Both the position numbers and the translations under genes were made by a program. From positions 1 through 39,938 of the forward strand of contig JAKFXC010000101.1 of assembly GCA_021731625.1 (NCBI GenBank): a stretch of 39,938 bases of DNA. Direction: 5' to 3'. The stretch comes from Candidatus Omnitrophota bacterium. GTDB taxonomy: Bacteria > Omnitrophota > Gorgyraeia > Zapsychrales > Fredricksoniimonadaceae. Below, one piece after another: positions 12,287 through 28,593 of the stretch (position 1 is its first letter; every line of letters starts with the position of its first letter). The notes beneath the pieces are model-generated. The model saw nothing but the letters and a program-made list of their open reading frames with translations, was not told the origin of the DNA and made no database searches.

Positions 12287-12715
12287 TTAAGGGTTGGTAG
12301 TAAGCCACTTACGGATGGTGTGTTCAATGGTGTTCCGCACCGTGCGGATTTTGGTGAGTTTTTCCTGATGGGAACCGGTCAAGGTCGAGGGGTCGGGAAA
12401 AGACCAGTGCAATTTCTTGACCGCCCCGGGGAAAATGGGACAGCGTTCGGCGCTGGCTTCGTCGCAGACGGTGATCACATAATGGTAGCGGCGGCCCTCG
12501 GTGAAGAGGTCAAAAACTTTTTGGGTTTTTTTGCCGGTGATATCAATGCCTTTTTCCCTTAAAATTTCTACCGCCAATGGATTGAGTTTTCCCGGTTCCA
12601 GACCGGCACTTTCCACGTCGAAGCGTTCACCGCCGAGCTTGCGCAACAGCTCCTCTGCCATTTGGCTGCGGGCGGAATTATGGATACAAACAAAGAGGAC
12701 TCTTTTTTTAGGCAT
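12287..12715 (-). CDS. arsC: Arsenate reductase, thioredoxin-type (LMW phosphatase fold)
   Basis: With the ATG at 12715 the protein has 142 residues. It has the P-loop CIHNSARSQ with nucleophile Cys10 and Arg16, typical of low-molecular-weight tyrosine phosphatases. The extra cysteines Cys84 (VTVCDEA) and Cys92 (ERCPIFPG) are those used by thioredoxin-linked arsenate reductases, and FPDPS near the end carries the general-acid Asp. It would reduce arsenate to arsenite. The longer open frame upstream (to 12799) would run deep into phoU and is not supported. The start overlaps the phoU stop by eight bases, so it is the last gene of the pst operon. A protein-tyrosine phosphatase role is a weaker alternative. 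No arsenite exporter is visible. Confidence 0.82.
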   Translation of the reverse strand: MPKKRVLFVCIHNSARSQMAEELLRKLGGERFDVESAGLEPGKLNPLAVEILREKGIDITGKKTQKVFDLFTEGRRYHYVITVCDEASAERCPIFPGAVKKLHWSFPDPSTLTGSHQEKLTKIRTVRNTIEHTIRKWLTTNP

Positions 12716-13370
12716 CGTTCTCCGTATGGCTATGCTTGATGTCACGGCCTTCCACAATATAAATGACCTCTTCGGCAATGTTGGTAGCCAAATCCGCAAT
12801 GCGCTCCAGGTTGTGGGCGATGCGCATAATGTGCAAGGCCCGGGTGATGGCGTCCTTCTGGGTGCGCATGACTTCGGTCAGGTCTTTGAGGATTTTATCT
12901 CCGGCATTATCGACGATGTTGTCCCGCTCCAAGACCGCATTGGCCAAATCCACATTCTCATTCACAAAAGCATTGATGCTGTCTTTGAGCATGTGCACGG
13001 CGTTCTCGCCCATCATTTTGAGGTCATCCACCGGGCCGAGCACCGGCTTTTGGATGAGCACCAAGGCGCTTTCACACACATTGACGGCATGGTCGGCAAT
13101 ACGCTCCAAATCCTTGTTCATTTTGACAATCATGATGACCTGGCGCAGGTCGCGCGCCACCGGCTCATACTGCGCGATCAAGACCACGCACATCTCGTCG
13201 ATCTCGCGGTCATAATCATTGGCCTTTGGCTCTTCAGTGTTCATGACCTCAAGCAGCAAAACCTCGTTTTTATCGGTCAGGCCGCGGAGGCTTTTGGTGA
13301 TCATGTCCTCGACCAACGCCGCGTCTTCCAGAAGATGACGCTTTAGTTCAACCATTTTTTCTCTAAGCAT
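12708..13370 (-). CDS. phoU: Phosphate transport regulator PhoU
   Basis: PhoU restrains the PstSCAB transporter and couples it to the PhoR kinase. With the ATG at 13370 it has 220 residues, preceded by AAGGGA at a good distance; an in-frame ATG seven codons upstream overlaps the end of pstB and is less likely. The two repeated three-helix bundles each carry the acidic metal-binding pattern: ANDYDREIDEM in the first half and NAGDKILKDL in the second, with DLERIADHAVNVCE and NLERIADLATNIAEE as the matching helices. The gene lies 13 bp after pstB, and the arsC start is inside its end. Confidence 0.95.
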   Translation of the reverse strand: MLREKMVELKRHLLEDAALVEDMITKSLRGLTDKNEVLLLEVMNTEEPKANDYDREIDEMCVVLIAQYEPVARDLRQVIMIVKMNKDLERIADHAVNVCESALVLIQKPVLGPVDDLKMMGENAVHMLKDSINAFVNENVDLANAVLERDNIVDNAGDKILKDLTEVMRTQKDAITRALHIMRIAHNLERIADLATNIAEEVIYIVEGRDIKHSHTENDA

Positions 13371-13383
13371 GTCTGTCCCTTCG

Positions 13384-14148
13384 TTAGCCAAACCGTCCGG
13401 TTAAATAGGCTTCTGTTCGCTTATCCTGCGGCACTGTAAACATCCGCTCAGTCACTCCAAACTCGATCAAATCTCCCAAATACAAAAAGGCCGTGAAATC
13501 GGAGACCCGCGCCGCTTGCTGCATATTGTGCGTCACAATGACGATTGTGTAATCATTTTTTAATTCAAAAATCAACTCCTCAATGCGGCTGGTGGCAATG
13601 GGGTCCAGGGCCGAACACGGCTCGTCCATCAAAATGATTTCAGGCCCCATGGCCAGGGCCCGGGCAATGCACAACCGTTGCTGCTGCCCGCCGGAAAGGG
13701 CCAATGCCGACTTGTCTAAATTGTCTTTGACCTCGTCCCATAGCGCCGCCCGGCGCAGACTCTTCTCCACCATATAATGGAGCGTTGCCTTATCTTTGAT
13801 GCCGATAATTTTTAGACCATAGGCTATGTTTTCATAAATGGATTTTGGGAACGGGGTGGATTTTTGAAACACCATCCCCACTTTGCGCCGCAGTTCCACG
13901 ACATCCACATGCTTGGCGTAAATGTCCGCCCCGTCGATTAGCACCTTCCCTTCCACGCGGGAGGTGGGGATCAAATCATTCATGCGGTTTAAAATGCGGA
14001 TGAAGGTCGACTTGCCGCAGCCCGACGGGCCGATTAAGGCGGTGACCTTTTTGGAGAGAATGTTTAAGTTGATGTCTTTGAGCGCTTTGTTCTTGCCGTA
14101 GTAAAAATTCAGCTTCTCAACGATAATCTTGACCGGAGATCCCAGCAT
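13384..14148 (-). CDS. pstB: Phosphate ABC transporter ATP-binding protein
   Basis: PstB powers high-affinity phosphate import. From the ATG at 14148 it has 254 residues, close to the family norm. It has Walker [10 protein letters not shown], the Q-loop (VFQKSTPFP), the signature LSGGQQQR, Walker B IILMDEP and the switch His (VTHNMQQ). The open frame extends 18 codons further upstream into pstA, but homologues begin near this ATG, which has AGG upstream. It follows pstA by 13 bp. Confidence 0.95.
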
Positions 14149-14161
14149 ATCAGGAAACCTT

Positions 14162-15079
14162 TCAGGTCTTGCCGGCAAAAATGCGGCTTTGCCGGGTGAC
14201 AAAATAATTGGCCAAAAGATTGATGATAAACACCAAAATAATCAAAATGAGCGCCCCAGCCCAGGCCTGGCGGTGCCAGTCGTCATAGGGTGAAATGGCA
14301 AACGCAAAGATCTGCAACGGGAGCGCCGCGATCGGTTGTATCAAGCCGCTTTGCCAAAAATGATTGCCGAACGCCGTAAAGAGCAGCGGCGCGGTCTCGC
14401 CCGCCACCCTGGCCAGCGACGACATGATCCCGGTCATAATGCCGCCCAGGGCGGTGGGGATGATGATATCCAGCGTGACTTTCCATTTGGGCACCCCTAA
14501 CGCAAGGCCTGCCTCCCGCAAAGTCTCCGGCACCAGGCGCACAAACTGCTCGCTGGTGCGGGCGATCATGGGGATCATCATGATTCCTAACGCAAAGCCC
14601 CCGGAGAGCGCGGAGAAACTCTTCATAGGTGCCACCAAAATTTCATAAGCAAAAATACCAAAAACAATGGATGGAATGCCGTTCATAACATCGGTGGTAA
14701 AACGCACGATATAGGCAAAACGCTTGTGCGCGTATTCGCTTAAGTAAATCCCCGCACCCAAGCCCACCGGCACCCCAAAGGCCACCGCAATTGCCAGCAA
14801 TGTCAAAGAACCGACCATGGCGTTGGCCATGCCTCCGCCCTTTTCACCGACCGGAGCGGGCAAATGGGTCAGGAACGCCAAATTGAGCGAAGAAACCCCC
14901 TGCGTCAACAAATGCCCCAAAATGGCAAATAAAGAAAACACAATGATCAGGGCGCAGAAAGACAGCACATAGACCACCGTGTTGTCAGCCAGGCGCCGCT
15001 TCATGCGCGTCGCCCTAAAAGTTTCCAGCAAACGGGTCTTTATTTGAATATCGCTTAAGGTTTTTGTGTCACTGACCAT
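14162..15079 (-). CDS. pstA: Phosphate ABC transporter permease PstA
   Basis: PstA is one of the two inner-membrane subunits that form the phosphate channel. Its 305 residues include a cytoplasmic N-terminal segment (about 1-30), six hydrophobic spans, and the EAA loop around [22 protein letters not shown] that docks to Pst[13 protein letters not shown] and [16 protein letters not shown] are typical PstA signatures. Its start overlaps the end of pstC by 25 bp, indicating coupled translation. Confidence 0.95.
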
Positions 15080-15975
15080 ATCAGAAACCTGGCAATCATG
15101 TTTACAAAAATAGACACTAAAAATAAAACCAGGCCGATTTCAACCAGGGCGGACAAATACAATTTGCTGGCCGCTTCGGCAAACTCATTGGCAATGACGC
15201 TTGCCAGCGTATACCCGGGGGAAAACAGCGACGCGGAAATTTTAGCGTTGTTGCCAATGATCATGGTGACGGCCATGGTCTCCCCGATGGCCCGGCCCAG
15301 GGCTAAAATAATCGCGCCCATGATACCGGGTTTGGCGTGGCTTAATATGATGAAACGTAGGGCCTCCCAGCGGGTCGAGCCCGTGGCGTAGGCGGCCTCT
15401 TTATAAACGGCCGGTACCGCTAAAATCACCTCGCGGGAAACCGAAATAATGAAAGGCACGACCATAATGGCTAAGATCACGCTGGCCGAAAGGATGCCCA
15501 CCCCATAATTGGGCCCTTGAAAAAAAGGTAAAAATCCTAAATGTTTTCCTAAAAACGGCTGCACATGCTCGCGCATGATAGGCACCAGCACGAAAATCCC
15601 CCATAATCCGTAAATGACGCTGGGGATAGCGGCCAGAAGATCAATGAACATGGCAATGGTTTTTTGAATTTTGAGGGGTGCATATTCAGCCAAATAAATG
15701 GCGGTGCCCAGGCCGATGGGAATGGCCAAGAGCAAAGCCACAAAAGAAGTGACCAAGGTCCCAAAAATAAAAGGAAAGGCGCCAAAATTTTCGAACACCG
15801 GATCCCAAGTCGAGGAGACCAGAAACTTAAAGCCGAATTTCTGAATAGACAGCCATGACGCATCAACCAGCTTCCAGAAAATCCCGGCCACCAGGACAAG
15901 GATTAGGCAGGGAAAAACGGCCAGGGTGCGCTCAAAAATGAGATCGCCGGTGTCTTTGCGATTCATGGCGTGCAT
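15055..15975 (-). CDS. pstC: Phosphate ABC transporter permease PstC
   Basis: PstC is the partner permease of PstA. Its 306 residues have six membrane spans. The family motifs AIPSVIYGLWGIFVLVP, YKEAAYATGSTRWEALRFIILSHAKPG (the EAA loop) and GRAIGETMAVTMIIGN are present. The ATG at 15975 has AGGAT seven bases upstream; another ATG three codons later is possible. It is separated from pstS by a 33-bp-arm inverted repeat, which may lower the amount of transcript that reaches pstCAB. Confidence 0.95.
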   Translation of the reverse strand: MHAMNRKDTGDLIFERTLAVFPCLILVLVAGIFWKLVDASWLSIQKFGFKFLVSSTWDPVFENFGAFPFIFGTLVTSFVALLLAIPIGLGTAIYLAEYAPLKIQKTIAMFIDLLAAIPSVIYGLWGIFVLVPIMREHVQPFLGKHLGFLPFFQGPNYGVGILSASVILAIMVVPFIISVSREVILAVPAVYKEAAYATGSTRWEALRFIILSHAKPGIMGAIILALGRAIGETMAVTMIIGNNAKISASLFSPGYTLASVIANEFAEAASKLYLSALVEIGLVLFLVSIFVNMIARFLIWSVTQKP

Positions 15976-16001
15976 TATATCCTAGAATTAAGCAGACACA
16001 A

Positions 16002-16083
16002 TAAAAAAGTAGGGACAACGCCCTATTAATTCGGGTTACATTGGGTGGCACCGAATTAATAGGGCGTTGTCCCTACTTTTTTA
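16002..16083. repeat. Perfect long inverted repeat between pstS and pstC (MITE/REP-like)
   Basis: The two arms, 16002-16034 and 16051-16083, are exact reverse complements over 33 bases, with a 16-base loop. The arm core reads GTAGGGACAACGCCCTATT. The pstS stop codon (16083-16081) lies inside one arm. On the minus strand the stem ends in a run of six T, so it can also act as an intrinsic terminator or attenuator between pstS and pstCAB. Length, perfection and composition suggest a small non-autonomous mobile element, but no second copy is present in this window to prove it. Confidence 0.85.
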
Positions 16084-17091
16084 ATACTTCACTTTTGTGA
16101 GCTTTTGGTCGATCATATCCACGACTTCGGAGGGTAATGGTGCATATAACAAGTCTTTGGCATATTCCTGGCCGTCATGGATGGCCCATTTTATAAAATT
16201 GACGATGGCCGCACCTTTGACAGGGTCGTCCATGTCCTTATAAATCAACAGCCAGGTAAACCCTGAAATCGGATACGCGTCGGCATTGGAACTATTGACG
16301 ATGGAAACCCGAAAATCGTCAGGGATCTTCACGCCTTCCGCGGCTTTGGAGGTGGATTCAATGTCCGGGGTAATAAAATTCCCGCTGCTGTTCTTGACAT
16401 CGGCATAAGACAAATCATTATGAATGGCATAGGCCAGTTCATTATATCCTATAGAGCCGTTGGTCTGCTTGATCAAACCAGCAACTCCTTCATTGCCTTT
16501 GCCGCCTAAGCCCACCGGCCAGTTAACTGACGTGGCTTTGCCGACTTTGCCCTTCCATTCGCTGCTTACCGAGCTTAAATAGTCCACGAAGATATACGTT
16601 GTGCCGCTGCCGTCAGAACGGTGCACCACGATAATAGGCAGATTTGGCAAATTGACGTCCGGGTTGTCCGCCGCGATACGGGCATCATCCCAATTGGTAA
16701 TTTTGCCCAAGAAAATATCGGCCAGGACATCGGGACTTATTTTTAAGCCACTGTCCACTCCCTCTAAATTGTAGGTTACCGCAACAGCTCCCATGACCAT
16801 GGGAATATGGTAAATACGTCCCGGGGCCTCATTCATTTGGTCCGGGGTCATTGGACCATCGGTAGCACCAAAATCCACCGTCTTGGCGGTGATTTGCTTA
16901 ATGCCGCCGCCGGAACCGATGGATTGATAATTAAATTGGACCTCAGGGTTGGACTTGGAATAAACATTGAACCATTTGGAGTAAATGGGGTACGGAAATG
17001 TGGCCCCGGCCCCATTGATCAAAACCGGTCCGGCCCAAGCCAAACCCGCCATGGCCATTGTGAGGACCAGCAAAAAAAATCGTTTCATCAT
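16081..17091 (-). CDS. pstS: Periplasmic phosphate-binding protein
   Basis: PstS captures phosphate for the Pst transporter. Its 336 residues begin with a signal peptide (about 1-20, ending AWA). The mature protein starts with the classic VLINGAGATFPYPIYSKW, and phosphate-contact regions follow: QSIGSGGGIKQI, VDFGATDGPM and VHRSDGSGTTYIF. It ends in a typical domain with WLLIYKD and VNFIKWAIHDGQ. The start is supported by AAAGGGG upstream. The porin gene is 14 bp upstream on the same strand, and the stop codon falls within an inverted repeat. Confidence 0.96.
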   Translation of the reverse strand: MMKRFFLLVLTMAMAGLAWAGPVLINGAGATFPYPIYSKWFNVYSKSNPEVQFNYQSIGSGGGIKQITAKTVDFGATDGPMTPDQMNEAPGRIYHIPMVMGAVAVTYNLEGVDSGLKISPDVLADIFLGKITNWDDARIAADNPDVNLPNLPIIVVHRSDGSGTTYIFVDYLSSVSSEWKGKVGKATSVNWPVGLGGKGNEGVAGLIKQTNGSIGYNELAYAIHNDLSYADVKNSSGNFITPDIESTSKAAEGVKIPDDFRVSIVNSSNADAYPISGFTWLLIYKDMDDPVKGAAIVNFIKWAIHDGQEYAKDLLYAPLPSEVVDMIDQKLTKVKY

Positions 17092-17105: not shown

Positions 17106-18401
17106 TTAAAATTTCCAGTTAATGTCCGCTTGGAACAAATGCTCCGGGGCCTTGTTGGCCACTTTGATCCGCCGGGCTTGATAATAATCAAAAACAAAAG
17201 TCATATTTTTGGCCAGGCCAAACTCGAAAATGCTCTCGAAACCTTTGACCCCCGTATTGCCGCTGTAAAAATCGGAGTCGGGCAAAATGTCCAGCCAGGC
17301 ATCTTTTTCGATTTTCTTAAAAGCCGCTGTGGCCTTCCAGGTGCCAAAACCGCTGACTTTAGAATTGCCCATATAAACACCAGCCATAAAGGCTTTATTG
17401 TCGGTGTCGGGACTTGGGTTTTGCGTGTATTGACCAAAGACTCCCACCCGCGGGATATAAATGCGGCTGGGCAACAGTTCCCCGAAAGGATCATTGATGC
17501 CGACATCCACAGCACCCATCGGAGCGGTGTAATCATATAAGAGCGAATTTGCCCCTATTCCGGCCGAGCCGGCAGTATTGTTGGTGCGGCTACCGGTGAA
17601 ACCAGATTTGATATTAGCATAACCCTGATAGGTCCCAACCAATTTCGCATCCAATTTTTCCCCTGCCTTTGCGTTCAGGCCTGTCTGCACCACCCACATA
17701 AACGGATCGCTGGTGCTGGCGGAGAAATTATTGAGCACAAACGAATTGCCCGTGGCCCACACGCCAAAATTGTCGTTGATTTTCTTGTCCAAACGCAATG
17801 ATCCGCCCTCAGGCGTGATGTCCCCGTCCCATAAAAATTCCATGGGTTCCCAAATGGGATTGTCCATCTTACCTGCCATGAAACTCACGTTCGGATTAAA
17901 CGTGTACGCCCCGTAGGCTTTATTTAAAACCACATTGGTTTTGGCAAACGGCTTGTTGGCGGCCTCGGTGCTGGTGTCACCGCTGAAGGTCAAATTATTG
18001 GAGCGCGCATTATTGGCCCCGCCGTTGGTGGCGATACCAAAGACCACTTTGGCCTTGTCGGTCAGCTTTGTTTCAAAATTTAAACGGGCCCGGATGCGCC
18101 CTTGAGAATTATTGACGGACCCGTTTTTCCTTTTCTGGTCCTGGAACCGCACCCGCATGTCCCCGCTGAATTTGGAATTTTGTACCCATTCCGGGATGTC
18201 CCTCTTCATGTTCGCTTCTTGAATGACTTTGGAATCATAAACGATACGGCCTTTCAGGAGGTCGGCCTCGTCCGCGGTCAGAATTCCCTTATCAACCAGT
18301 TTCTCGATCAAAGCATCCACCGTGGTGTCAGGGCCTGCCGCATGGCATAGAGAAGATGCCATGACAGTCATGACCATGAAGCCTATTAATATTTTTTTCA
18401 T
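17106..18401 (-). CDS. Putative porin, phosphate-regulon associated
   Basis: This 431-residue protein has a signal peptide (about 1-21, ending CHA). A short helical segment follows (about 25-75, TVDALIEKLVDKGILTADEAD), and then a beta-barrel starting KFSGDMRVRFQDQKRK and ending in an aromatic residue (INWKF). This matches the putative-porin family (PF16930 type) with its N-terminal helical hairpin. Its place immediately before pstS and behind a Pho-type promoter argues that it lets phosphate or phosphate esters cross the outer membrane, as PhoE or OprP do elsewhere, though it is not obviously related to those. The start follows GAGGAAGAGG. Confidence 0.82.
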   Translation of the reverse strand: MKKILIGFMVMTVMASSLCHAAGPDTTVDALIEKLVDKGILTADEADLLKGRIVYDSKVIQEANMKRDIPEWVQNSKFSGDMRVRFQDQKRKNGSVNNSQGRIRARLNFETKLTDKAKVVFGIATNGGANNARSNNLTFSGDTSTEAANKPFAKTNVVLNKAYGAYTFNPNVSFMAGKMDNPIWEPMEFLWDGDITPEGGSLRLDKKINDNFGVWATGNSFVLNNFSASTSDPFMWVVQTGLNAKAGEKLDAKLVGTYQGYANIKSGFTGSRTNNTAGSAGIGANSLLYDYTAPMGAVDVGINDPFGELLPSRIYIPRVGVFGQYTQNPSPDTDNKAFMAGVYMGNSKVSGFGTWKATAAFKKIEKDAWLDILPDSDFYSGNTGVKGFESIFEFGLAKNMTFVFDYYQARRIKVANKAPEHLFQADINWKF

Positions 18402-18464: not shown

Positions 18465-18503
18465 GTTATAATTTAATAAAGGGATTGTTAAGTTTGTGTT
18501 AAG
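18465..18503 (-). promoter_or_regulatory. Pho-type promoter of the porin-pstSCAB-phoU-arsC operon
   Basis: Read on the minus strand, three 7-bp units recur every 11 bp: CTTAACA (18503-18497), CTTAACA (18492-18486) and CTTTATT (18481-18475), with AT-rich 4-base spacers. TATAAC (18470-18465) follows as a -10 box exactly one further period on. This is the geometry of PhoB/PhoP boxes, in which 11-bp direct repeats replace the -35 box. The TTAACA core recalls the Gram-positive PhoP box more than the enterobacterial CTGTCAT. The expected transcription start is near 18457. Confidence 0.8.
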
Positions 18504-18535: not shown

Positions 18536-19237
18536 TCACGATTCAGCATCCCTTAGCCGATATCCAAAGCCCCGGACGGTCTCAATATATTGACAACCTA
18601 ACCCTAGTTTTTTACGTAACCCCTGAATATGCACATCCACGGCCCGGTCAATGATAAATTTCCCTTCCTTCCACACATTGTCTAGAATCTGTTCCCTGGT
18701 GTAAACCCTCCCGGGTTGACGGGACAGAAATTCTAAAATCTTAAACTCCAAAGTGGTCAGGTCGATCCGCTTGCCGTTCACCAGAATTTTGTGCTTAAGG
18801 GTATCGATGATGAGGGGTCCAAATTCACGCCGGTCTTTGAGGTCCAAACCCGCTTCAGAAGATTTTATCCGTCGAAAAAGGGCTTTAATGCGGGCCAGCA
18901 GGATTTTGGGGCTAAAGGGCTTGGTGATATAGTCCTCCGCGTGCATTTGCAGCCCCACCAAAACATCCGCCTCTTCACTTTTGGCAGTCAACATAATCAC
19001 CGGTATGCGCCTTAGCGTTTCGTCGGATTTCAATCGCCGGCATACTTCCATGCCATCCATCTCGGGGATCATGAGGTCCAACAGAATCAAATCCGGTTTC
19101 AAGCGAAGGGCGTATTCGTAGGCATTCAGCCCGTCGAAAACTGCGGACACATCGTACCCTTCCCGCTGCAGGTTATAACGGATGAGCTCGCTGATGTCCC
19201 GATCGTCCTCCACCACGAGAATACGTCTTTTGATCAT
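18536..19237 (-). CDS. phoB: PhoB-type response regulator
   Basis: This 233-residue OmpR/PhoB-family regulator has a receiver domain (1-120) with the acidic pocket D11/D12, phospho-acceptor D54 (LLDLMIP) and K106 (EDYITKPFSP). A winged-helix DNA-binding domain (about 135-230) carries the TTLEFKILEFLSRQPGRVYTREQILD and VDVHIQGLRKKLG motifs and ends VRGFGYRL. Its position upstream of the porin-pst operon and the matching Pho-type repeats at both promoters identify it as the phosphate regulator. The likely kinase, PhoR, is not adjacent but at 30444-31607, beyond the giant gene. Confidence 0.92.
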   Translation of the reverse strand: MIKRRILVVEDDRDISELIRYNLQREGYDVSAVFDGLNAYEYALRLKPDLILLDLMIPEMDGMEVCRRLKSDETLRRIPVIMLTAKSEEADVLVGLQMHAEDYITKPFSPKILLARIKALFRRIKSSEAGLDLKDRREFGPLIIDTLKHKILVNGKRIDLTTLEFKILEFLSRQPGRVYTREQILDNVWKEGKFIIDRAVDVHIQGLRKKLGLGCQYIETVRGFGYRLRDAES

Positions 19238-19260: not shown

Positions 19261-19299
19261 ATTAAAATCAGGTAAAGAAGCTGTTAAGTTTGTGTTATT
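19261..19299 (-). promoter_or_regulatory. Pho-type promoter of phoB (autoregulation)
   Basis: Minus-strand units AATAACA (19299-19293), CTTAACA (19288-19282) and CTTTACC (19277-19271) recur every 11 bp, followed by TTTAAT (19266-19261) as a -10 candidate. The arrangement is the same as at the porin promoter, and the first spacer (CAAA) is identical. The first unit overlaps the stop codon of the giant gene. Positive autoregulation by PhoB is the natural reading. Confidence 0.75.
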
Positions 19300-22200
19300 T
19301 CACAAAGAATTCAATGGGATTGAGCATGGGACGGTATTGCAGCAATTCAAACTCGAACCCGCGGAAGGACTGCAAATCGTAAACCACGTTGGGCTTAGAG
19401 GCTGGTAGGGCGTCTGATTGTTGAGAATCAATCCGGACCACATTTCGGGTAGCGGTAAGGTCCAAACCGCCGTCGGGACTTACCATGGCTTTTTCTCTTC
19501 TAACCATCCGCAGCTGCCGCGGCTGCTTGCCGTTAACAGGAATGGGGCTGACGGTAGGGATAGTGACGGGGCTGGCCACCTCATCCCCATTGCCAGATTT
19601 CGTGTAAATCTTCAATTTTGCCGCCTTAAAATGGGGCGCAAAGACATTAATGACCAATTCCTTGTTACCTTTGGGAATTCCTTTGGCGCGCGAGACAGCC
19701 TCGAACAAAGCTTCATAATAATTCCACAGCTGTGTCCTGTGCTGTGCCCTCAGTTCCCGGTTGTCACCATATATTTTTCTCAAATCCGGTAACCGGGCCC
19801 TCTTTCTCAAATATCTGTCCACATGGTCGTGCGTCGGCTGCGCAATCACGTTGAAGAAGTCTCTTCCCAGATGCACCGGAAGCTCCTTCGGAAGTATGGT
19901 TTCTACCGCGTCTGCCATCTCCTCCATAATGTCACTCACCCTTGCTCCCATGACCAGCCGTCCCGCGCTTAAGGGATACTGATCGATGCTTGGGTTGGTG
20001 GGATCAACGATTTTTTTCATCTCGGCCAGGATGTCATTATTTTCCTCCGCCTGCATTTCGTCCAGGTCCAACTTTTCGAACGTCCCGCGAAACTTGCCAT
20101 TCTTGCCCATACGAACGAACCCTTCATCCAGGTCTTTTTTCTTTCCTCGGACCGCAACGAGGCTGATATCCGCCTTTCCGCGCGGGGGAGGAATCGGGCC
20201 GCTATATTTGTTTTGAGCATACGTAATCACAAATTCCTTGCCCGGCTTTCGGGAAGCCAACCAATAGCCGTCCATAATGGCCCCGCCGATGGCTTCCACC
20301 ATATCTTCTTCAGCGATGCCCTGGGGGATCGGCACAAACAATACCCTGGCTTGAGGCCAGCGGGCACCCAATTGTGCCCGTGCAAACCTGACCCCCTCAA
20401 AAATACTGTTGGCACTTCCGGGCCTGGTCTTCTGAAAGAGCTCCACGCTTGCTTTTTTATGAAAATATTTTGCCGTGAATTTCGGGTCCTTGATGACCCT
20501 GGAAATCGCATCCATATCGTTGGCACTGGCCGGAATAAGGGCAATCAAATCGAATGTGGGCTTAGCTCGACGGCGCTCCGGCGCCAGCAATTTCTGGCTT
20601 TCCTGGGCCACCGTGGATTTAACTTCACCTAAGGCCGCATTGAATTGATTTTCCCAAGCTTTGAAACTGCTTTTCCACTCTTGGCGATATTCCATTTTCA
20701 ATAAATTCAAATTGCGGTCCCAATGAAACCATAAACTCAGCAGCAAGGCGATTAAACCGAGCACGGACAGTTTTGGAACACTGAGATTAATCAACGGGCC
20801 CCAGAGAAGAACACTGACTAAAGCGATGGGGACAGCGACCGCGCCCAAACGGGTCAAAAAACGGCCTCGCCGGTTGATGTCCGCCTGCCCCTCCGAAGAA
20901 GAAGGCACCAATGAGGTGACATTTTTGATGGCATTGGCCTGGCGTTTTTCATATTCAATCGTGAAACCTTCAGGGTCAGGATATAAGCCCGGAATAATGC
21001 GGTTGCCATTGGCTATAATCGCGTTGCGATCTGCCCGCATGGCTGCTACGGATTTTTTCCCCATATAATCGTATCCTTGAAGCCCACGAATAAAAGGATA
21101 AATACCAACCTTATATCCGCCCAACCTATAAAGACGTTCCAGAGGATGCCCGGCGCGATACATATGGTCAATCCACGTGTTGAGATTGCCGCGTTCGTCC
21201 AACCATCCGAGGTAATCCGTCACATACCCCATCATCTGCATAATGGTGTCTAACTCGTCCTTGAGATCCCGGCGCTGCGATTCATCCAATGTTTTGTGAC
21301 GCTCCACATATTCGGCCAAAAAAGGCAAAGTATGGCTTCCTAGAAAAACAAAAAACGCATAACCCTTTATGTAATCTCCATTATTAATTTCGGGAGAGCC
21401 GCGCGCGGGGCTATCCCCTCCATTTTTAGACACAAGCTCCGGTGTGAGCGGGGCCAGAATCATGATCGTCGACATGGAATTGATCATATTATTCACCGCT
21501 AAAATCACGTCCCTGGGTGCGGTTTCATGGCTCAAGGATTCCAACTCTTCCTTCCAGGCCAGCAGGTGGGTGTTAAAGTTGGCATTGGCAGGAATTTCCG
21601 GGCCACCTTCGCCGGGATCCACCATCACCATGGCCGGGTCACCCTTGTTCCTGCGCACCAGATTAGACCATTTAGGCAATTTGGAATGGCCATTCGTCTT
21701 CTTGGACTGATAGCCCTGACCGAAATGCGCCAGTCCGCGGTCGACACGCTGCCGCGGCGTGGCTTTTTTGCGCCAAAAGAATTCCCGTGTCCGTCCAAAT
21801 CCAAACAAAGTGATGAATATGGCCCCCACGGCGGCCGGGAAGATAAAATGCCCTAAAGGTTTATACGGCAACTCTTGATTGTTTTCCCTTATTTCTCGCT
21901 CAAAACGCGGTGCGTTCTTAATCACCTGCTCCACAATTTCTAAGCCCGGTTGGCCTCTTAATTGACCGAGGGTGTGTTTAAGATCGCGCGGGTTCGAGTT
22001 GCGGGTTTTCAGAGCAATTTGATCCAGGGCATTTTCCTCCACCTCTGTAAAAAAACGTTGATTGGAATGGGTCCAGAATCGGTGTTCCTTCTCACGGTCA
22101 TGTTTAACGTATCCCAGTGAAAAGGCGATGGCCTTTGCCTCGATATAGGCATCCACGGCTGATTTCCCGCGGGGGTCCTCGGCCAGCCGTATTTCGTCAT

Positions 22201-25200
22201 AGGTATCAAAGGTGTTCAAGCGAATGTCTAGAAACTGTTCATTCCCGCTGGCCTTATACATGTCCAGGGAAGCCTGCCGCACAATCAGGGTTTCCTGGGT
22301 GTTTTTACGCTCAAGTTTTTGCAAAATGTCGATCCAGCCGCTGCCCTCGATCGTCCCCTTGAGCTTAGGGTTAGTAATGTACTCCTGAAGGGCTTGAATG
22401 ATGCCCTCCCGGGTTTTCAAAAGCCAATCCAGCGCCTCCTCGGCGGAAGATGTTCCGGTGGCTAGAATTCGCCGCAGCTGTGCCACATTGTCTTTGGCTT
22501 CACTCACCGGGCGCGGCTGATCGTCCGGACCCAAAACTGCAAAACGACCCAGAGCCGGCTGGTCGGCTTCTTCGTCGGGCACCTCAAAGAGAAAGGCAAA
22601 CTGTTCAGCCCTGCTCCTATTCCGCTCCAAGACCGCGTTGGCCGCGGCCTCCGCCTGTCTAAAGACATCCGCGGACATGAGCTCAATATTGTTGGCAATC
22701 CCGGAAATTTCAATCCCCCTTTTTTCTTCAGGAAAAAGTTTGACGGCACGAAAGTCATTGCGCATATCGTTCCAAAAATACACGTCCGGGGACTCATACG
22801 CTTGGAATTTCTTAGCGGCATTCCTTTTGTATTCCCGGCGCTGGATTTCCTTATGAATACGCTCCGCCAGGTCCCGGGCATCCAGTTGGGGATTGTCCAT
22901 CTTAAGGCCCCAATATATTTGTGCCAAGGCATCGCTGTCCCAATAGGGCGACCGCAAAAGATATTCCGCTGTCAGCCGATCAGTCCTTTTCAAAAAACTC
23001 ACCCATACGCGGCGGGACAGGCGCCTTAGGTCCTGGCCGTCCGGGGTACCCTTCGGCGGAGGAAACGGAAACATGACATCTTCCGATATATTGAGATCCT
23101 TTGAATTGATGATCAAATCCCTGATGGCCTGAAACCCCCATTGCCCCCGGAGCGAGCCGGACAATCGCGGGCTGTCGATGGTGGGCAGAGGTTGACTAAA
23201 GGCGCGGTGGATCATCTGGATGAACAACGGAATGTTGTTGTCGTTGCGATTGGCCAAATGGGCCCATAGCTGCTGGATGACTTCGGGATAGTCGCTGGAC
23301 AATAAAATTTCCTCAACTGCCTGCAAAAACTGCGGATCATTCCTCTGGCGCTTAAACAGCCGCTGCAAAGTCTCATCCCGCACCAGCTCGTTAGGTTCGC
23401 TGATCAGGATGCGCGCCACTTCCGCAATAGGTCCTGCCAATTTTTCTTTAGTAACATTATTTGGTCCACTGGGCGCTGATCCCGCCGGTCCTTTGTCATT
23501 CGTCCCACTCATCAACAGCCAGAGTCTTACCGCTGCGCGGTTGGGGTCCGGTGCGCCCGCCGCTTGAAAAGTGACGGCGCCCGCCGGAAAAAAGGGACCT
23601 CCTCCTGCGGATGGGGTACTCGGCCTCACCACAATATCATCCACCCCTTTGGGCATGGCTAACTGCATTCCCCCCGAGCTGCGGGTAACTGGCGGCGCTG
23701 AGGACACCCGCACCGCCCCAACGTCTTTGGCTTTGACCAATGACTCATCCAGCACCTGCAATTCGCGCAATTTGGCTTCTTGCTCGAAGTAATCTTTCTT
23801 CCTTTCAATGATTTGACGGCCCATGGCTTCAATGCGCGCACGTTCCTCCACCAAATCCGGCATGGAGTAGATGTCGGGCTGGGCGGCCTTCCCTTCCCAG
23901 TGCACAACCGCCCCTTCATGAAGTTTTTCCATTCTGGAAATTTCCTGGCTGGCCATATTAAGAAGACTCACAGCTATACGAAGGTTTTGAGCTTCATTGT
24001 GTTTGGCACTGCTGACTCTTAAGCGGGCGGCCTGGTCTTCCAAACGCATAATTGTTTCCAAGGGTCGCTTGGTGGAATCATAAAGCAAAAGCTCAAAACC
24101 TGCCCCTCCGGTAAAATGGCCTTGGGCAGCCGTTGTCCGTAAGTCCGCCCCCCGGGTCAAATCCCTGATAGGGTTAAATGTTTTATCGTCGGAGATAAGC
24201 AGCGACGTGAAATTCACCGCCGGAAGCAAGCCATCCTTTTGCATTTGTATGGCCACATCCATTGACCGCTTCTCCGCTTCCGCCTGTTTGATGTGGTAGC
24301 TTTCGGAAAGCAATGTGCGCAGCATCCGCTGCTCCTGTTCCGCCGAAATTGATACAAAATTCCCGTCCCAGACTATGTCCGGGGTAAATGACGAGCCGAG
24401 TGGCTCAAGCCGCAGGTGGTTAAGGGCATCGGTCAATCGCTTCATGTCATCAAAGCAACGGGCAATGCGGGTATCAACGTCCTCAATTTTCTTGGCCAAA
24501 GCACGGACCTCTATCACCGTGGCCTCTCCGACCTCAGCCCGCTTGTCTAAGACCTTTTTTGCCTTTTCTAAGTCTTCTTTGAGCGACTGCAGCGAAGCCG
24601 CGCGTTCTTGAGCCGCACCCACAGCAGTCCATAAATTGTCGGCGGCGTTAATATTTCCCATAAGCGTTGTCTTAAGACCCCACCGGGAGGCCTCAACACC
24701 CGTGTCAGCCAATTTTTTAAGTTTTCCCGGTTTATCGGTCAGAAGGTCGGTGATTTGGGTCCAGACTGCGGAGATCAACTGGTCCGCCACAGCCCCGTAC
24801 GCATTCCCCATGGCAATAGAACCCCCTATAATATTTCGGAATACGCCGCCTAATCCACCTGAGAACAACACCTTTCCAGCTCTCAGAAAAATATTGGCCT
24901 GAAGGCTTATTTTGGTGGGATTGACCATTTCTGCTTCCGCCTCGCGCATCTGAACCGCGATGGTGGCTGGGTGACTCAAATATTGATTGCCGATGATCTG
25001 GGATCTTAGATCCGCCAAACTCAGGGACGGACCAACGGGCTTGTGCGGTCTCGACGGAGAGAAGCGCACGGGTTGTAGAGGGAAAGAAATTCTTGCTGGT
25101 GGCCGCGTTTGATACTTAAGCGGCAGCGGCCGAGCCCTGGCTGCCTGAGCCCGTCGCTGCTCTTCCGCTCTGTGGTTCTCGCCGTCTTGCAGCACGCTGG

Positions 25201-28200
25201 CAATGCGGGCCGCCTCTTCCTTCGTCAGCACCCGCACCTGCACTGGTTGACCTTCACCAAGGGCAAAACCAGTGTCTTCCACCATGACTTCGAACGTCTC
25301 TTGCGGCCGCAGGAAGCGTAAAAATCCGCTGCCGGCCATCCGATTAATCGATGTTATGCGGCCAGGCATCACGTTTCCCCTTTTCGTAACCACCGCCACC
25401 GGAGATCCTTCTTGCAGCGCCGATTGTCCTGATAAAGTTGGGCCGGTTTCGATGCTCTCGGTGCTGCCCACGACAGCTTTTCTGGTTTGCAGTTCCAAAA
25501 TAACGGTCCCCTTAGGATTATTGACACCGGCCCGGCGGGTGACGATGCCGTCTTCAGAGGCAATGATCTGCAAATTCGAGATCCGAGTTGCCAAGGTTGA
25601 CAAGTTGCCAGCAAGCATGTCCATTTGCTCGCGGAGCCGGTCCTTGTCCCGATTAAGAACATAGGGTATGCCGTCCAATTCACCAGACATCTGATCCATT
25701 TGCTCCTGCAGCACATTGTACGCCAGCACGCGCTGCTGATATTCCTGAAATAAAAGTTCGACCATGGTTGATTCGGCCAACAATTGCCCGGCCTGGACCC
25801 GGTCGCCCAAATCGACGTGATATTTCATATTGCTGTCTTCGGGGTTAAAAAATTTTACCCGTTGGACGGCTTTTACCGATGACAGTATGGAATGGGTACC
25901 CCTCATCCCAGCCAGCTGGACATGACGGTTTTCCGAGGGATGAAGTCTGGCATACACCGGCACCCGACGCTCGGTGGGAACCGGACGCGGAGATACCAGC
26001 TTAAAAGTGACTAACACTTCGGTATCGGAGGCTTGCTCTTTCCATTCCACGCCCGCTATCTTGACTTTTTCTCCATTGAGGGTAAATTCACCGATCTTTT
26101 CAAAACTGGTCATTCCGGTCGGCGCCCGCACTGTTAAATTAACCACCTGCAAATTGTCCAACTCCAAAATTTCGGTCTTCTCATCCACATGTTGCCCATC
26201 CCTCACCAAAGTTTTATGAACCCTGCCAGCATGGGGCGTTCTGACGGTGCGGACCTCTTGACTTTGTTCAAGCTCATCCGCCTCGCGTTTTACGGTGATC
26301 GCTCTATTGCGGGCTGCCAAAACTTCCGCCGCCGTTGCTGCCCCTGACTTATGCAACTTTTCCTTACGCTTAAGGTCTTCCGTGGCCAATTTTAGGGTGA
26401 CTTTTTTATCCTCTATTTTTCCGCTAATGCTCAGACTGTCCACCTGGGCAACCTTGGCATTTTTCGGATAGACCCTGACGTCCGGATCAAAACCGCGCAT
26501 AATCCCCGCCGCCCCGGCAAAAAGCTTTTCCCTCACCGGCACCACGCTCGCATTTCCTGAAATAGTAAATACACCCCGCGCATCGATCTGAACCCGCGCG
26601 GTTGCATCCGTCGAGGTATGTGGCACGGCAGGCCTTGCAGGGTTTTTTGCCGCTTCCCCTTCACTTTTTACGCTGCCACCGTGACCTCCACCTGAACCGG
26701 GGAGCACATCGCTCTTCTCAGGCGCTTTCGCTGCCAATTTTCTCATTTGACCCGCCGCAGACTTGTCCACTCCGTCTTTGCTTGAGACTTTTTCTGGACC
26801 CCCGCCCGCAGCCTTGATCGCCGGACCATTGGCCTCGCCTGCCTTTGTTGATGAGAAAGCGTCCATCGCCTTGCGGTTATTGACAGCGGCGCCTGTCTGC
26901 GGCCCTATAACACCATCGATGCGCACTCCCAGTATTCCCTGCGCGGTTTCAGTCACAAGTCGCCGCGACTTTCGCAATTGCGAAGACTCAAAAATTTTGT
27001 CCCAATTGGCTCGGAGATACGCAGCTTGCCGGGAATTGAGCTTCTTGGCCTTAACCACATCTTCAACTTTGACAATGTCCTTCATCTTTCGAAAGACATC
27101 ATTTTTTTCCTTGGCTGACATACGGATCTTGCTCGCTCTACTTACTTGCTCTTTCTGGATCTTAATCTGGACCATCTGAGGACCGATGTTTTCTACGACC
27201 GCGGCCCGCGGAGGAGCAGTTATTTTATCGGCTGGTATTGCCAGCGGGGTTAGAGGCGCCACAAAAATAGTGGCGGCGAGTGCGGCGGCAAATAATTTTT
27301 GCCGGCTAATGCCCTTGGGAAGCAGTGCCAGATCCACGCTGTAGAGACGTTTCCCCAGGTTATTGACCAGCATGGCAAATTCAGAAGGAGACGCGGGAAC
27401 GGGTAAAAATTTAGCCCACCCTCTGGCGTTAAAAACCACGCCGCCGGAGAAGTATTTTCGGGGTACCAGGCCGCCGCTCTGGTCACGGTCTTCCCGGATA
27501 TAATTGTAGACTCCTTTCTTGAAGGCCTCAAGATACTGACCATAGATCTTTTCCTTAAAATTTTTCTCGTCAACGGCAATGCCGAAGGTTTTCTTCTGGT
27601 CCGCAAAAACTTTGTTCACCAAATGCTCTTTGAGACGCCGTTTAAACCAGATCGCCAGGATCAGCGAATGGAACATCTGGCGCAAAGGGGCAAACTCCCT
27701 CCCTTCATTGACTTCCCGCTCGAGCTCCGGAAGAATGATCTCTTTGAGCAGAGTGGATTCCAGCGCGTTATTCGCGGTTGGCGCCTGACCACGCATTTTT
27801 TGGGCCAGATAATCCTTCTCCAACATAACCTTTAAGCGACTCTCGGCAATAAAAGCTGACCCGTCGCGTTCATAGACCACAGCTTTTTCGGGGACGATCC
27901 AGACTTTGCTGATCATATCCATCGGCGCATATCCCCTGTATTTCTCCCCTGCCTTGGCCAACATTTTCTTCCAAAATGTTCTGCCAGGCTCCCGCTCAGG
28001 ATACGTCATGGAAGCGGCCATTTGTTTAAGCATATAATCCAGAATGAGCATGTCCCGTCCGACGATCGTTGACTCGAGGTTTTGATTTAGGATGCGATTG
28101 GCCTCGTAAGGCGAAAGGTTGACCCAAAGGTCTTCTTCTGGAATAGCCAGAAAGGTCAGGAAGTATTTGGCCAGGCGTTCAATCTGCTCCTGATCAAGAT

Positions 28201-28468
28201 GGGGATCATCGGCGGCATTGACCAGAAATTTAAACTTACATGGGTCCAGAGGGTCGACGGATATGGCTTTAAGCTCAGGGGCGACAAAACGGGGGGAAGC
28301 TTCCAATAACCGGCCGGGCGGTGGCATCAGGGCATTGGGAGCGGAGGCATCCTGGGCGTAAGCCGTGTGGATGTTGAGGATGTCCACGCCGACCGTATTG
28401 CCGCCAAAGGCCAGCAATACCGACCAACAAATCACCCGAAACCAAGCAGGACAAATCTTTTGAGGCAT
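19295..28468 (-). CDS. Giant multidomain exported protein (3057 aa) with efflux adaptor- and TolC-like regions
   Basis: The ATG at 28468 follows AAGGA. Residues 10-38 form a signal peptide or anchor (ending AYAQD). Residues 75-350 form a helical block, including KVWIVPEKAVVYERDG and LVPRKYFSGGVVF, that I associate with Omnitrophota giant proteins. A hydrophobic span lies at 391-412. Residues 475-535 resemble a peptidoglycan-binding domain (GILGVRIDGVIGPQTGAAV). Residues 540-620 are a Gly/Ala/Lys-rich linker. Residues 620-1085 carry two membrane-fusion-protein (HlyD/RND adaptor) units, with coiled coils at 690-735 and 900-965 and barrel-sandwich halves such as RTPHAGRVHKTLVRDGQHV and VDLGDRVQAGQLLAES. 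Residues 1150-1590 have the long paired helices and LxxA/S pattern of TolC-type outer-membrane factors. Residues 1680-2200 are alpha-solenoid-like. Membrane spans lie near 2205-2223, 2537-2562 and 2566-2584. Residues 2640-2960 form an unrecognised alpha/beta region. Adaptor and TolC calls are pattern-based inference; exported giant status is well supported. Confidence 0.8.
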   Translation of the reverse strand: MPQKICPAWFRVICWSVLLAFGGNTVGVDILNIHTAYAQDASAPNALMPPPGRLLEASPRFVAPELKAISVDPLDPCKFKFLVNAADDPHLDQEQIERLAKYFLTFLAIPEEDLWVNLSPYEANRILNQNLESTIVGRDMLILDYMLKQMAASMTYPEREPGRTFWKKMLAKAGEKYRGYAPMDMISKVWIVPEKAVVYERDGSAFIAESRLKVMLEKDYLAQKMRGQAPTANNALESTLLKEIILPELEREVNEGREFAPLRQMFHSLILAIWFKRRLKEHLVNKVFADQKKTFGIAVDEKNFKEKIYGQYLEAFKKGVYNYIREDRDQSGGLVPRKYFSGGVVFNARGWAKFLPVPASPSEFAMLVNNLGKRLYSVDLALLPKGISRQKLFAAALAATIFVAPLTPLAIPADKITAPPRAAVVENIGPQMVQIKIQKEQVSRASKIRMSAKEKNDVFRKMKDIVKVEDVVKAKKLNSRQAAYLRANWDKIFESSQLRKSRRLVTETAQGILGVRIDGVIGPQTGAAVNNRKAMDAFSSTKAGEANGPAIKAAGGGPEKVSSKDGVDKSAAGQMRKLAAKAPEKSDVLPGSGGGHGGSVKSEGEAAKNPARPAVPHTSTDATARVQIDARGVFTISGNASVVPVREKLFAGAAGIMRGFDPDVRVYPKNAKVAQVDSLSISGKIEDKKVTLKLATEDLKRKEKLHKSGAATAAEVLAARNRAITVKREADELEQSQEVRTVRTPHAGRVHKTLVRDGQHVDEKTEILELDNLQVVNLTVRAPTGMTSFEKIGEFTLNGEKVKIAGVEWKEQASDTEVLVTFKLVSPRPVPTERRVPVYARLHPSENRHVQLAGMRGTHSILSSVKAVQRVKFFNPEDSNMKYHVDLGDRVQAGQLLAESTMVELLFQEYQQRVLAYNVLQEQMDQMSGELDGIPYVLNRDKDRLREQMDMLAGNLSTLATRISNLQIIASEDGIVTRRAGVNNPKGTVILELQTRKAVVGSTESIETGPTLSGQSALQEGSPVAVVTKRGNVMPGRITSINRMAGSGFLRFLRPQETFEVMVEDTGFALGEGQPVQVRVLTKEEAARIASVLQDGENHRAEEQRRAQAARARPLPLKYQTRPPARISFPLQPVRFSPSRPHKPVGPSLSLADLRSQIIGNQYLSHPATIAVQMREAEAEMVNPTKISLQANIFLRAGKVLFSGGLGGVFRNIIGGSIAMGNAYGAVADQLISAVWTQITDLLTDKPGKLKKLADTGVEASRWGLKTTLMGNINAADNLWTAVGAAQERAASLQSLKEDLEKAKKVLDKRAEVGEATVIEVRALAKKIEDVDTRIARCFDDMKRLTDALNHLRLEPLGSSFTPDIVWDGNFVSISAEQEQRMLRTLLSESYHIKQAEAEKRSMDVAIQMQKDGLLPAVNFTSLLISDDKTFNPIRDLTRGADLRTTAAQGHFTGGAGFELLLYDSTKRPLETIMRLEDQAARLRVSSAKHNEAQNLRIAVSLLNMASQEISRMEKLHEGAVVHWEGKAAQPDIYSMPDLVEERARIEAMGRQIIERKKDYFEQEAKLRELQVLDESLVKAKDVGAVRVSSAPPVTRSSGGMQLAMPKGVDDIVVRPSTPSAGGGPFFPAGAVTFQAAGAPDPNRAAVRLWLLMSGTNDKGPAGSAPSGPNNVTKEKLAGPIAEVARILISEPNELVRDETLQRLFKRQRNDPQFLQAVEEILLSSDYPEVIQQLWAHLANRNDNNIPLFIQMIHRAFSQPLPTIDSPRLSGSLRGQWGFQAIRDLIINSKDLNISEDVMFPFPPPKGTPDGQDLRRLSRRVWVSFLKRTDRLTAEYLLRSPYWDSDALAQIYWGLKMDNPQLDARDLAERIHKEIQRREYKRNAAKKFQAYESPDVYFWNDMRNDFRAVKLFPEEKRGIEISGIANNIELMSADVFRQAEAAANAVLERNRSRAEQFAFLFEVPDEEADQPALGRFAVLGPDDQPRPVSEAKDNVAQLRRILATGTSSAEEALDWLLKTREGIIQALQEYITNPKLKGTIEGSGWIDILQKLERKNTQETLIVRQASLDMYKASGNEQFLDIRLNTFDTYDEIRLAEDPRGKSAVDAYIEAKAIAFSLGYVKHDREKEHRFWTHSNQRFFTEVEENALDQIALKTRNSNPRDLKHTLGQLRGQPGLEIVEQVIKNAPRFEREIRENNQELPYKPLGHFIFPAAVGAIFITLFGFGRTREFFWRKKATPRQRVDRGLAHFGQGYQSKKTNGHSKLPKWSNLVRRNKGDPAMVMVDPGEGGPEIPANANFNTHLLAWKEELESLSHETAPRDVILAVNNMINSMSTIMILAPLTPELVSKNGGDSPARGSPEINNGDYIKGYAFFVFLGSHTLPFLAEYVERHKTLDESQRRDLKDELDTIMQMMGYVTDYLGWLDERGNLNTWIDHMYRAGHPLERLYRLGGYKVGIYPFIRGLQGYDYMGKKSVAAMRADRNAIIANGNRIIPGLYPDPEGFTIEYEKRQANAIKNVTSLVPSSSEGQADINRRGRFLTRLGAVAVPIALVSVLLWGPLINLSVPKLSVLGLIALLLSLWFHWDRNLNLLKMEYRQEWKSSFKAWENQFNAALGEVKSTVAQESQKLLAPERRRAKPTFDLIALIPASANDMDAISRVIKDPKFTAKYFHKKASVELFQKTRPGSANSIFEGVRFARAQLGARWPQARVLFVPIPQGIAEEDMVEAIGGAIMDGYWLASRKPGKEFVITYAQNKYSGPIPPPRGKADISLVAVRGKKKDLDEGFVRMGKNGKFRGTFEKLDLDEMQAEENNDILAEMKKIVDPTNPSIDQYPLSAGRLVMGARVSDIMEEMADAVETILPKELPVHLGRDFFNVIAQPTHDHVDRYLRKRARLPDLRKIYGDNRELRAQHRTQLWNYYEALFEAVSRAKGIPKGNKELVINVFAPHFKAAKLKIYTKSGNGDEVASPVTIPTVSPIPVNGKQPRQLRMVRREKAMVSPDGGLDLTATRNVVRIDSQQSDALPASKPNVVYDLQSFRGFEFELLQYRPMLNPIEFFVK

Positions 28469-28593
28469 TTTATCCTTGTATCAGAGTAGCTGCTTTATAG
28501 ATAAGGAAGTATGCCAAATGATTGTTAAGAATAAGTAAAAACAAGATTAAATTCTAAATTTCCTAAACCTGATTCCGGATACATTGCGGATCA

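Follow-up and report, generated by a model that had tools for sequence, protein, structure and literature searches.

In efflux and type I secretion machines, the adaptor and the outer-membrane channel usually come as two different proteins that have to meet in a 6:3 ratio. The locus described here raises the question of what becomes of this arrangement when both parts are encoded in a single chain, and what such a chain would do. The window, a stretch of 39,938 nucleotides from the draft genome of an uncultured member of the Omnitrophota (2.28 Mb in 101 contigs), carries a gene of 9.2 kb whose reading frame runs uninterrupted on the minus strand from an ATG at 28468 to a stop at 19295, exactly where the sequence-only reading had placed it, and encodes 3057 residues headed by a Sec-type signal peptide. 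We found that this giant chain holds two HlyD-type adaptor units (residues 632-1090), followed at residues 1150-1585 by an entire TolC-type outer-membrane factor (OMF) with both of its repeats. Pfam, profile searches, AlphaFold/Foldseek and hhalign are concordant in this, orthologues elsewhere agree, and the earlier proposal of two barrel-sandwich units and one TolC-like OMF in one chain is thereby borne out. A sequence search of the PDB with the entire chain gave no match. It is very improbable that an assembly or gene-calling error joined adaptor and OMF genes that are separate in reality: the host genome is a draft and N gaps break some orthologues, but unbroken single frames of similar order and size occur in many independent assemblies from different genera, which rules the error out. 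Natural gene fission was likewise rejected for G022 and G064, where the apparent splits are runs of N in the assemblies. The features of the locus are collected in Table 1.

Table 1. Features of the giant gene and its surroundings, with the type of evidence for each.
Feature	Residues	Coordinates	Strand	Basis
Single-chain adaptor and OMF giant protein	whole ORF, 3057 aa	19295..28468	-	Architecture common to orthologues
Sec-type signal peptide (AYAQ/D)	1-39	28352..28468	-	Sequence; same pattern in paralogues
Lineage-wide N-terminal block	60-350	27419..28291	-	57 hits within the host genome
Second, internal signal-peptide-like hydrophobic stretch	389-413	27230..27304	-	Sequence comparison
Peptidoglycan-binding-like motif, subthreshold	490-535	26864..27001	-	Pfam; recurs in orthologues
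Adaptor unit 1 (barrel-sandwich and alpha-hairpin)	632-850	25919..26575	-	Pfam, AlphaFold/Foldseek, profiles
RLT-type TolC-docking motif RKEKLHKSGAAT, unit 1	701-712	26333..26368	-	Motif definition (PMC3391258) and model
Adaptor unit 2 (hairpin without RLT motif)	852-1090	25199..25915	-	AlphaFold/Foldseek, profiles
OMF repeat 1	1150-1370	24359..25021	-	Pfam, AlphaFold/Foldseek, profile, hhalign
OMF repeat 2	1371-1585	23714..24358	-	AlphaFold/Foldseek, profile, hhalign
Conserved region, proposed periplasmic helical solenoid	1682-2200	21869..23425	-	Orthologue conservation
Predicted TM helix, K/R-rich C-side	2205-2223	21800..21856	-	Sequence
Helical domain, predicted cytoplasmic	2294-2535	20864..21589	-	Travels with alpha/beta domain
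Predicted TM hairpin	2540-2583	20720..20851	-	Sequence
Lineage-specific alpha/beta domain (GSGN, YSRDAYFGP motifs)	2630-2968	19565..20581	-	Orthologue comparison
C-terminal tail GG[LIV]D[LF]...GF	2996-3057	19298..19483	-	Orthologue comparison
Pho-box-like repeats TTTTACT-N4-CTTAACA-N4-TTTGGCA, then CATACT, upstream of giant's start		28512..28540	-	Direct repeats of 11-nt period
Pho-box-like repeats upstream of response regulator		19271-19299	-	Repeat scan
OmpR/PhoB-type response regulator		18536..19237	-	Pfam; Pho-box-like repeats upstream
Perfect CTTAACA-N4-CTTAACA and third unit, upstream of porin		18475..18503	-	Repeat scan
Porin_5 outer-membrane porin		17106..18401	-	Pfam
pstS, pstC, pstA, pstB, phoU		12708..17091	-	Pfam
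RND-OMF fusion (outside the window)		G000:C77:3233-4402; L093:1450-3519; L101	- (G000:C77)	ACR_tran and two OEP repeats

The adaptor part resembles MacA, AcrA, MexA and HlyD in the order of its elements; in model and profiles alike, a lipoyl-like barrel-sandwich with an inserted alpha-hairpin is followed by a beta-barrel, and this succession occurs twice. In the window protein itself, the HlyD families of Pfam are subthreshold (2.9e-4, residues 723-846), while they reach 9e-8 in orthologues. Among solved adaptors, a profile built from 12 orthologues across residues 632-1090 matched a MacA-MexA chimera (1.3e-10), MacA (3.1e-9) and EmrA (1.9e-6). Within the genomes of the phylum, profile positions 1-154 and 224-450 each match ordinary adaptors of 300-490 aa separately, indicating that both units are adaptor-like, as had been proposed for residues 620-1085. 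An AlphaFold model of residues 615-1600, which rests on a shallow alignment of 7 sequences, gives both units pLDDT values of mostly 60-92, with hairpins at ~679-736 and ~902-966, and Foldseek matched it to the adaptor AcrA in the PDB (2f1m, 5.7e-9). MacA, AcrA, MexA and HlyD dock to TolC by the motif RxxxLxxxxxxS/T (PMC3391258), which is found once in all 3057 residues. It sits where the tip of hairpin 1 is predicted, and 0.03 occurrences would be expected in 40 residues; among orthologues, its Leu and Thr/Ser are mostly retained and its Arg is not. The giant differs from these known adaptors in that two non-identical units stand in tandem within a far larger chain, the motif is absent from the second unit, and no pump adjoins. 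Indeed, no RND, MacB, MFS-exporter or ABC exporter gene lies next to the giant in the window, as noted before, or in the orthologue loci examined. Of the pump, adaptor and OMF that a tripartite pump or type I secretion system requires, the pump is missing from both chain and locus, and an exporter or pump partner may be encoded at an unlinked site.

The OMF part shows the hallmark of its family, two structural repeats with long helix pairs, in the model and by Foldseek, profile and hhalign. In the AlphaFold model, residues 1150-1585 run twice through a helix, a strand-forming segment, a helix of 60-66 residues and one of ~35 residues, which agrees with the long helical pattern that had been read at 1150-1590. 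The OEP family (PF02321) is above its curated cut-off at residues 1252-1321 (1.2e-5), and of 16 orthologue cores 8 match it as well. Foldseek matched the model that had hit AcrA also to ST50 (5bun, 1.6e-7) and TolC (7ng9, 2.6e-7; TM-score 0.57 by target); this one prediction covers two of the four stretches (620-1090 and 1150-1600) for which a structural check had been suggested. When 10 orthologous OMF regions were aligned by hhalign with the genome's own four ordinary OMFs, the probability was 96% (E 2.7e-9) over 299 columns that include both repeats, whereas the solenoid profile served as control and gave 0.1%. With the OMF profile, free-standing ORFs of ~420-530 aa were also found in other members of the phylum. 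In length (~440 residues), repeat number, helix succession and intervening strand-forming segments, this part is like TolC, ST50 and OprM. It differs from them in being an internal domain of a larger chain, in having lost the barrel part in two orthologues, and in having strands that are only predicted; the outer-membrane strand regions have pLDDT <50, so that the twelve-stranded barrel which OMFs form as trimers is only putative here.

Ahead of these modules lies an exported N-terminal block of 350 residues, which had been called lineage-type and which heads at least 57 ORFs of the host genome with very different payloads. Since the block is also widespread in the order, only residues 600-3057 are informative for orthology. 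One of its relatives, L018, carries a trypsin-like protease domain. Directly after the block comes a second signal-like stretch with a basic n-region, a hydrophobic core and often an AxA site, which orthologues L067-L083 share at this position, as do paralogues such as L016, L025, and L032; lying inside the chain, it is difficult to square with the topology of the N-terminal block. Of the peptidoglycan-binding domain proposed for residues 475-535, what stands is a motif, LGxxxDGxxGPxTxxAL, common to several orthologues. The domain match itself (PF01471/PF09374) falls below the curated cut-off, with PG_binding_3 at 2.9e-3 in the window protein and PG_binding_1 at 1.2e-4 in one orthologue, the best score being 22.7 bits vs. 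a cut-off of 23.

Behind the OMF, the 500-residue solenoid of the sequence-only reading corresponds to a region that is conserved in orthologues and presumably helical, for which a profile search (residues 1675-2200) found no PDB relative. It is followed by a predicted TM helix. By the positive-inside rule, the basic flank of a TM helix lies on the cytoplasmic side; from the strongly basic C-side of this helix we infer that the adaptor/OMF part is probably periplasmic, and the helical and alpha/beta domains probably cytoplasmic. Across the phylum the latter two domains occur together, including in ORFs that have neither adaptor nor OMF. Profile searches of the PDB gave no match for this end of the chain, and the GSGN and YSRDAYFGP motifs matched nothing among solved structures. 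The structural check suggested for residues 2640-2960 could be carried only as far as a low-confidence AlphaFold model whose fold matches are meaningless. A weak match of the C-terminal end to CofC, in one orthologue only, was not taken as real.

A first scan of contigs found no relative, and an alignment of 16 sequences had no conserved stretch that could be scanned; a subset of five sequences worked. Residues 600-3057 match 19 other genomes of the order, about 16 of which have the gene or a clear, in some cases shortened, relative, at ~18-28% identity. The named relatives are Omnitrophota MAGs, Candidatus Elulimicrobium among them. Most orthologues retain both adaptor and OMF at nearly constant inter-module distances, and the domain order that had been suggested as a check recurs across the order. 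In G251, of the same class, the order is adaptor, OMF and solenoid. In another class, the OMF match precedes the two adaptor units within one ORF (G133 and G154) or lies on the preceding, adjacent ORF (G163), and G127 has two adaptor units with solenoid, helical and alpha/beta parts and no detectable OMF. Retention of both adaptor and OMF while their order is swapped suggests that the modules act together. Other relatives are reduced. In the orthologues of G016 and G006, each OMF repeat has lost its strand-bearing half, and in G011 the gene is a short form consisting of the N-terminal block and the helical and alpha/beta domains, without the internal signal-like stretch, adaptor, OMF or solenoid, which nevertheless lies in the same phosphate locus. 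G160, G214, and G276 similarly have the helical and alpha/beta pair in that locus without adaptor or OMF. Because of the losses in G016, G006, and G011, a duct is not a constant part of the giant.

The sequence-only reading did not mention the phosphate locus, its promoters or the inner-membrane helices that lie toward the C-terminus. Directly downstream of the giant follow genes for a response regulator, a Porin_5 porin, PstS, PstC, PstA, PstB, and PhoU. Genes for Pst, porin or both lie next to the giant at 11 of the 18 loci from the order. Five additional loci from the wider phylum show this linkage, for a total of 16, with differing gene order; control loci (165 kb) contained no pst or porin genes. 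In G009, the gene immediately before the giant encodes a PHO4-type phosphate transporter (L071:5892-6887), and porin and pst come after the giant, so that two phosphate uptake systems flank it. In G152, up to three pstB-like stretches are found beside an OMF-bearing ORF (L142:4631-6120 and 3-668). The Pst/Pho linkage indicates when and where the giant is used, not what it carries.

A Pho box consists of two 11-nt units, each with 7 conserved and 4 spacer positions (PMC4415409). Direct repeats of this layout, with a period of ~11 nt, precede the giant, the response regulator and the porin; the porin copy is perfect and the other two are weaker. Those upstream of the giant stand ahead of a -10 box. 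The window holds 8 repeat matches (≤3 mismatches) vs. 2.3 expected, but no CTGTCAT repeats, which form the Pho box of the E. coli type. When 572,000 positions of the orthologue loci, the window excluded, were scanned with the window's repeat, 11 of the 16 near-matches lay ≤150 bp upstream of a giant gene, against an expectation of 0.06 (binomial P ~8e-24, a value that overstates independence since the loci are related); others precede porin genes. For many near-matches, a -10-like TATACT comes roughly another turn downstream, as in PhoB-activated promoters. Near-matches upstream of the giant include those of G018, G031, G025, and G023, in whose loci no pst gene was seen in the vicinity. Judging from these repeats, the giant gene may lie behind a phosphate-starvation-type promoter, i.e., be controlled by phosphate starvation. 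A sub-group of orthologues (L075, L081, L067, L070, L084) carries a variant repeat, ~[GT]TT[AC]ACA-N4-[GT]TT[AC]ACA, which suggests that the response regulator and its site may have co-evolved.

We propose, with a probability of roughly 45%, that the giant is a phosphate-starvation-controlled, inner-membrane-anchored, single-chain adaptor and OMF whose homotrimer forms a trans-envelope duct beside Pst. In tripartite systems, a TolC trimer meets an adaptor hexamer (PMC3391258). Since each chain here combines two adaptor units with one OMF protomer of such a machine, three copies of it would make up the canonical 6:3 ratio with no need for separate subunits; the three OMF protomers would form one TolC-like tube, and the six adaptor units a pseudo-hexameric funnel beneath it. 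Each chain would be tied to the inner membrane by the TM helix and the TM hairpin and would carry the lineage-specific cytoplasmic domains, while the peptidoglycan-binding-like part would hold the assembly in the wall. Produced at low phosphate, the assembly would span the envelope beside the Pst importer and PhoR/PhoB-type sensors, its tube would be open and inserted in the outer membrane, and its substrate would be phosphate-related. A conduit is favored by the 2:1 module count, the RLT-type motif at the predicted hairpin tip, and the retention of both modules despite their swapped order. Against it, no energy source is recognized in the chain or adjoining it, apart from the Pst importer. 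A serious rival, nearly as likely, is that the giant descends from an efflux duct but serves as a scaffold or tether, in which adaptor and OMF have ceased to form a tube and make a long periplasmic strut. Such a strut might hold Pst, porin and sensor kinase together, or link the membranes through the wall, with the helical and alpha/beta domains, which are the constant portion, doing the work. The rival stands so close because the duct modules are sometimes lost while locus and cytoplasmic part remain, and it is the favored explanation at least for G016, G006, and G011; the three further genomes in which the helical and alpha/beta pair stands without adaptor or OMF, the peptidoglycan-binding-like motif and the lack of a nearby pump are also consistent with it. 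However, most orthologues keep both OMF repeats complete and both adaptor units at little-changed length, the RLT motif is kept at the hairpin tip in the window protein, and the adaptor/OMF pair survives an order swap in another class, which a mere spacer would not need. The sequence-only reading had left a conduit and a scaffold derived from one side by side; its domain reading and its lack of an adjoining pump stand, and the proposal as a whole is partly supported.

It seems unlikely, though conceivable, that the giant is instead an exit duct for export, served by an energized pump or ABC exporter encoded elsewhere, through which phosphatases, scavenging proteins or small molecules would be secreted under phosphate starvation; to our knowledge, every known adaptor and OMF system exports. 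Export is the known function of the adaptor and OMF families (PMC8277102), Pho regulons commonly include extracellular enzymes (PMC4415409), and the host genome has other adaptors, other OMFs and an RND pump. Yet no exporter lies beside any examined orthologue, whereas the Pst importer does, and the chain has its own inner-membrane anchor. The opposite direction is more doubtful still: the homotrimer would then be a complete duct built from export parts and used for uptake, passing phosphate or phosphorus compounds from outside straight to Pst under starvation.

Whichever of these holds, the protein families themselves are known, and among the open-access papers searched none describes the combination of a tandem adaptor and an OMF in one chain, with no pump, an inner-membrane anchor of its own and a place in a Pho locus. 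We found no natural adaptor-OMF fusion in the open-access literature, an absence that is no proof. With the Pho regulon and PstSCAB-PhoU, the giant shares its locus and the layout of its promoter; we know of no Pho regulon that includes an adaptor and OMF protein and found none in the open-access literature. By uniting two adaptor units with a single channel protomer, one chain would encode the 6:3 ratio alone, and its relatives join the modules in other orders. The predicted PhoB-type regulon can be tested in an uncultured phylum, and phosphate starvation offers a concrete, function-related handle on its poorly understood large proteins. Giant ORFs of the Omnitrophota are reported to exceed 20 kb, to carry few annotated domains and to have functions that are unclear (PMC10066038). 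The present protein is like them in being large, TM-bearing and lineage-specific, and its alpha/beta domain recurs in ORFs of 15,564, 18,052, and 18,220 aa (L115, L120, and L122, in G211, G148, and G317); it differs in its smaller gene, its recognizable transport modules and its defined locus. The host genome also encodes a fusion of an RND pump with a complete OMF (ACR_tran, then two OEP repeats) in a 1517-aa frame beside a separate adaptor gene. Both proteins unite efflux parts in one chain, but the fusion joins pump and OMF and leaves the adaptor separate, whereas the giant, with no pump, joins adaptor and OMF.
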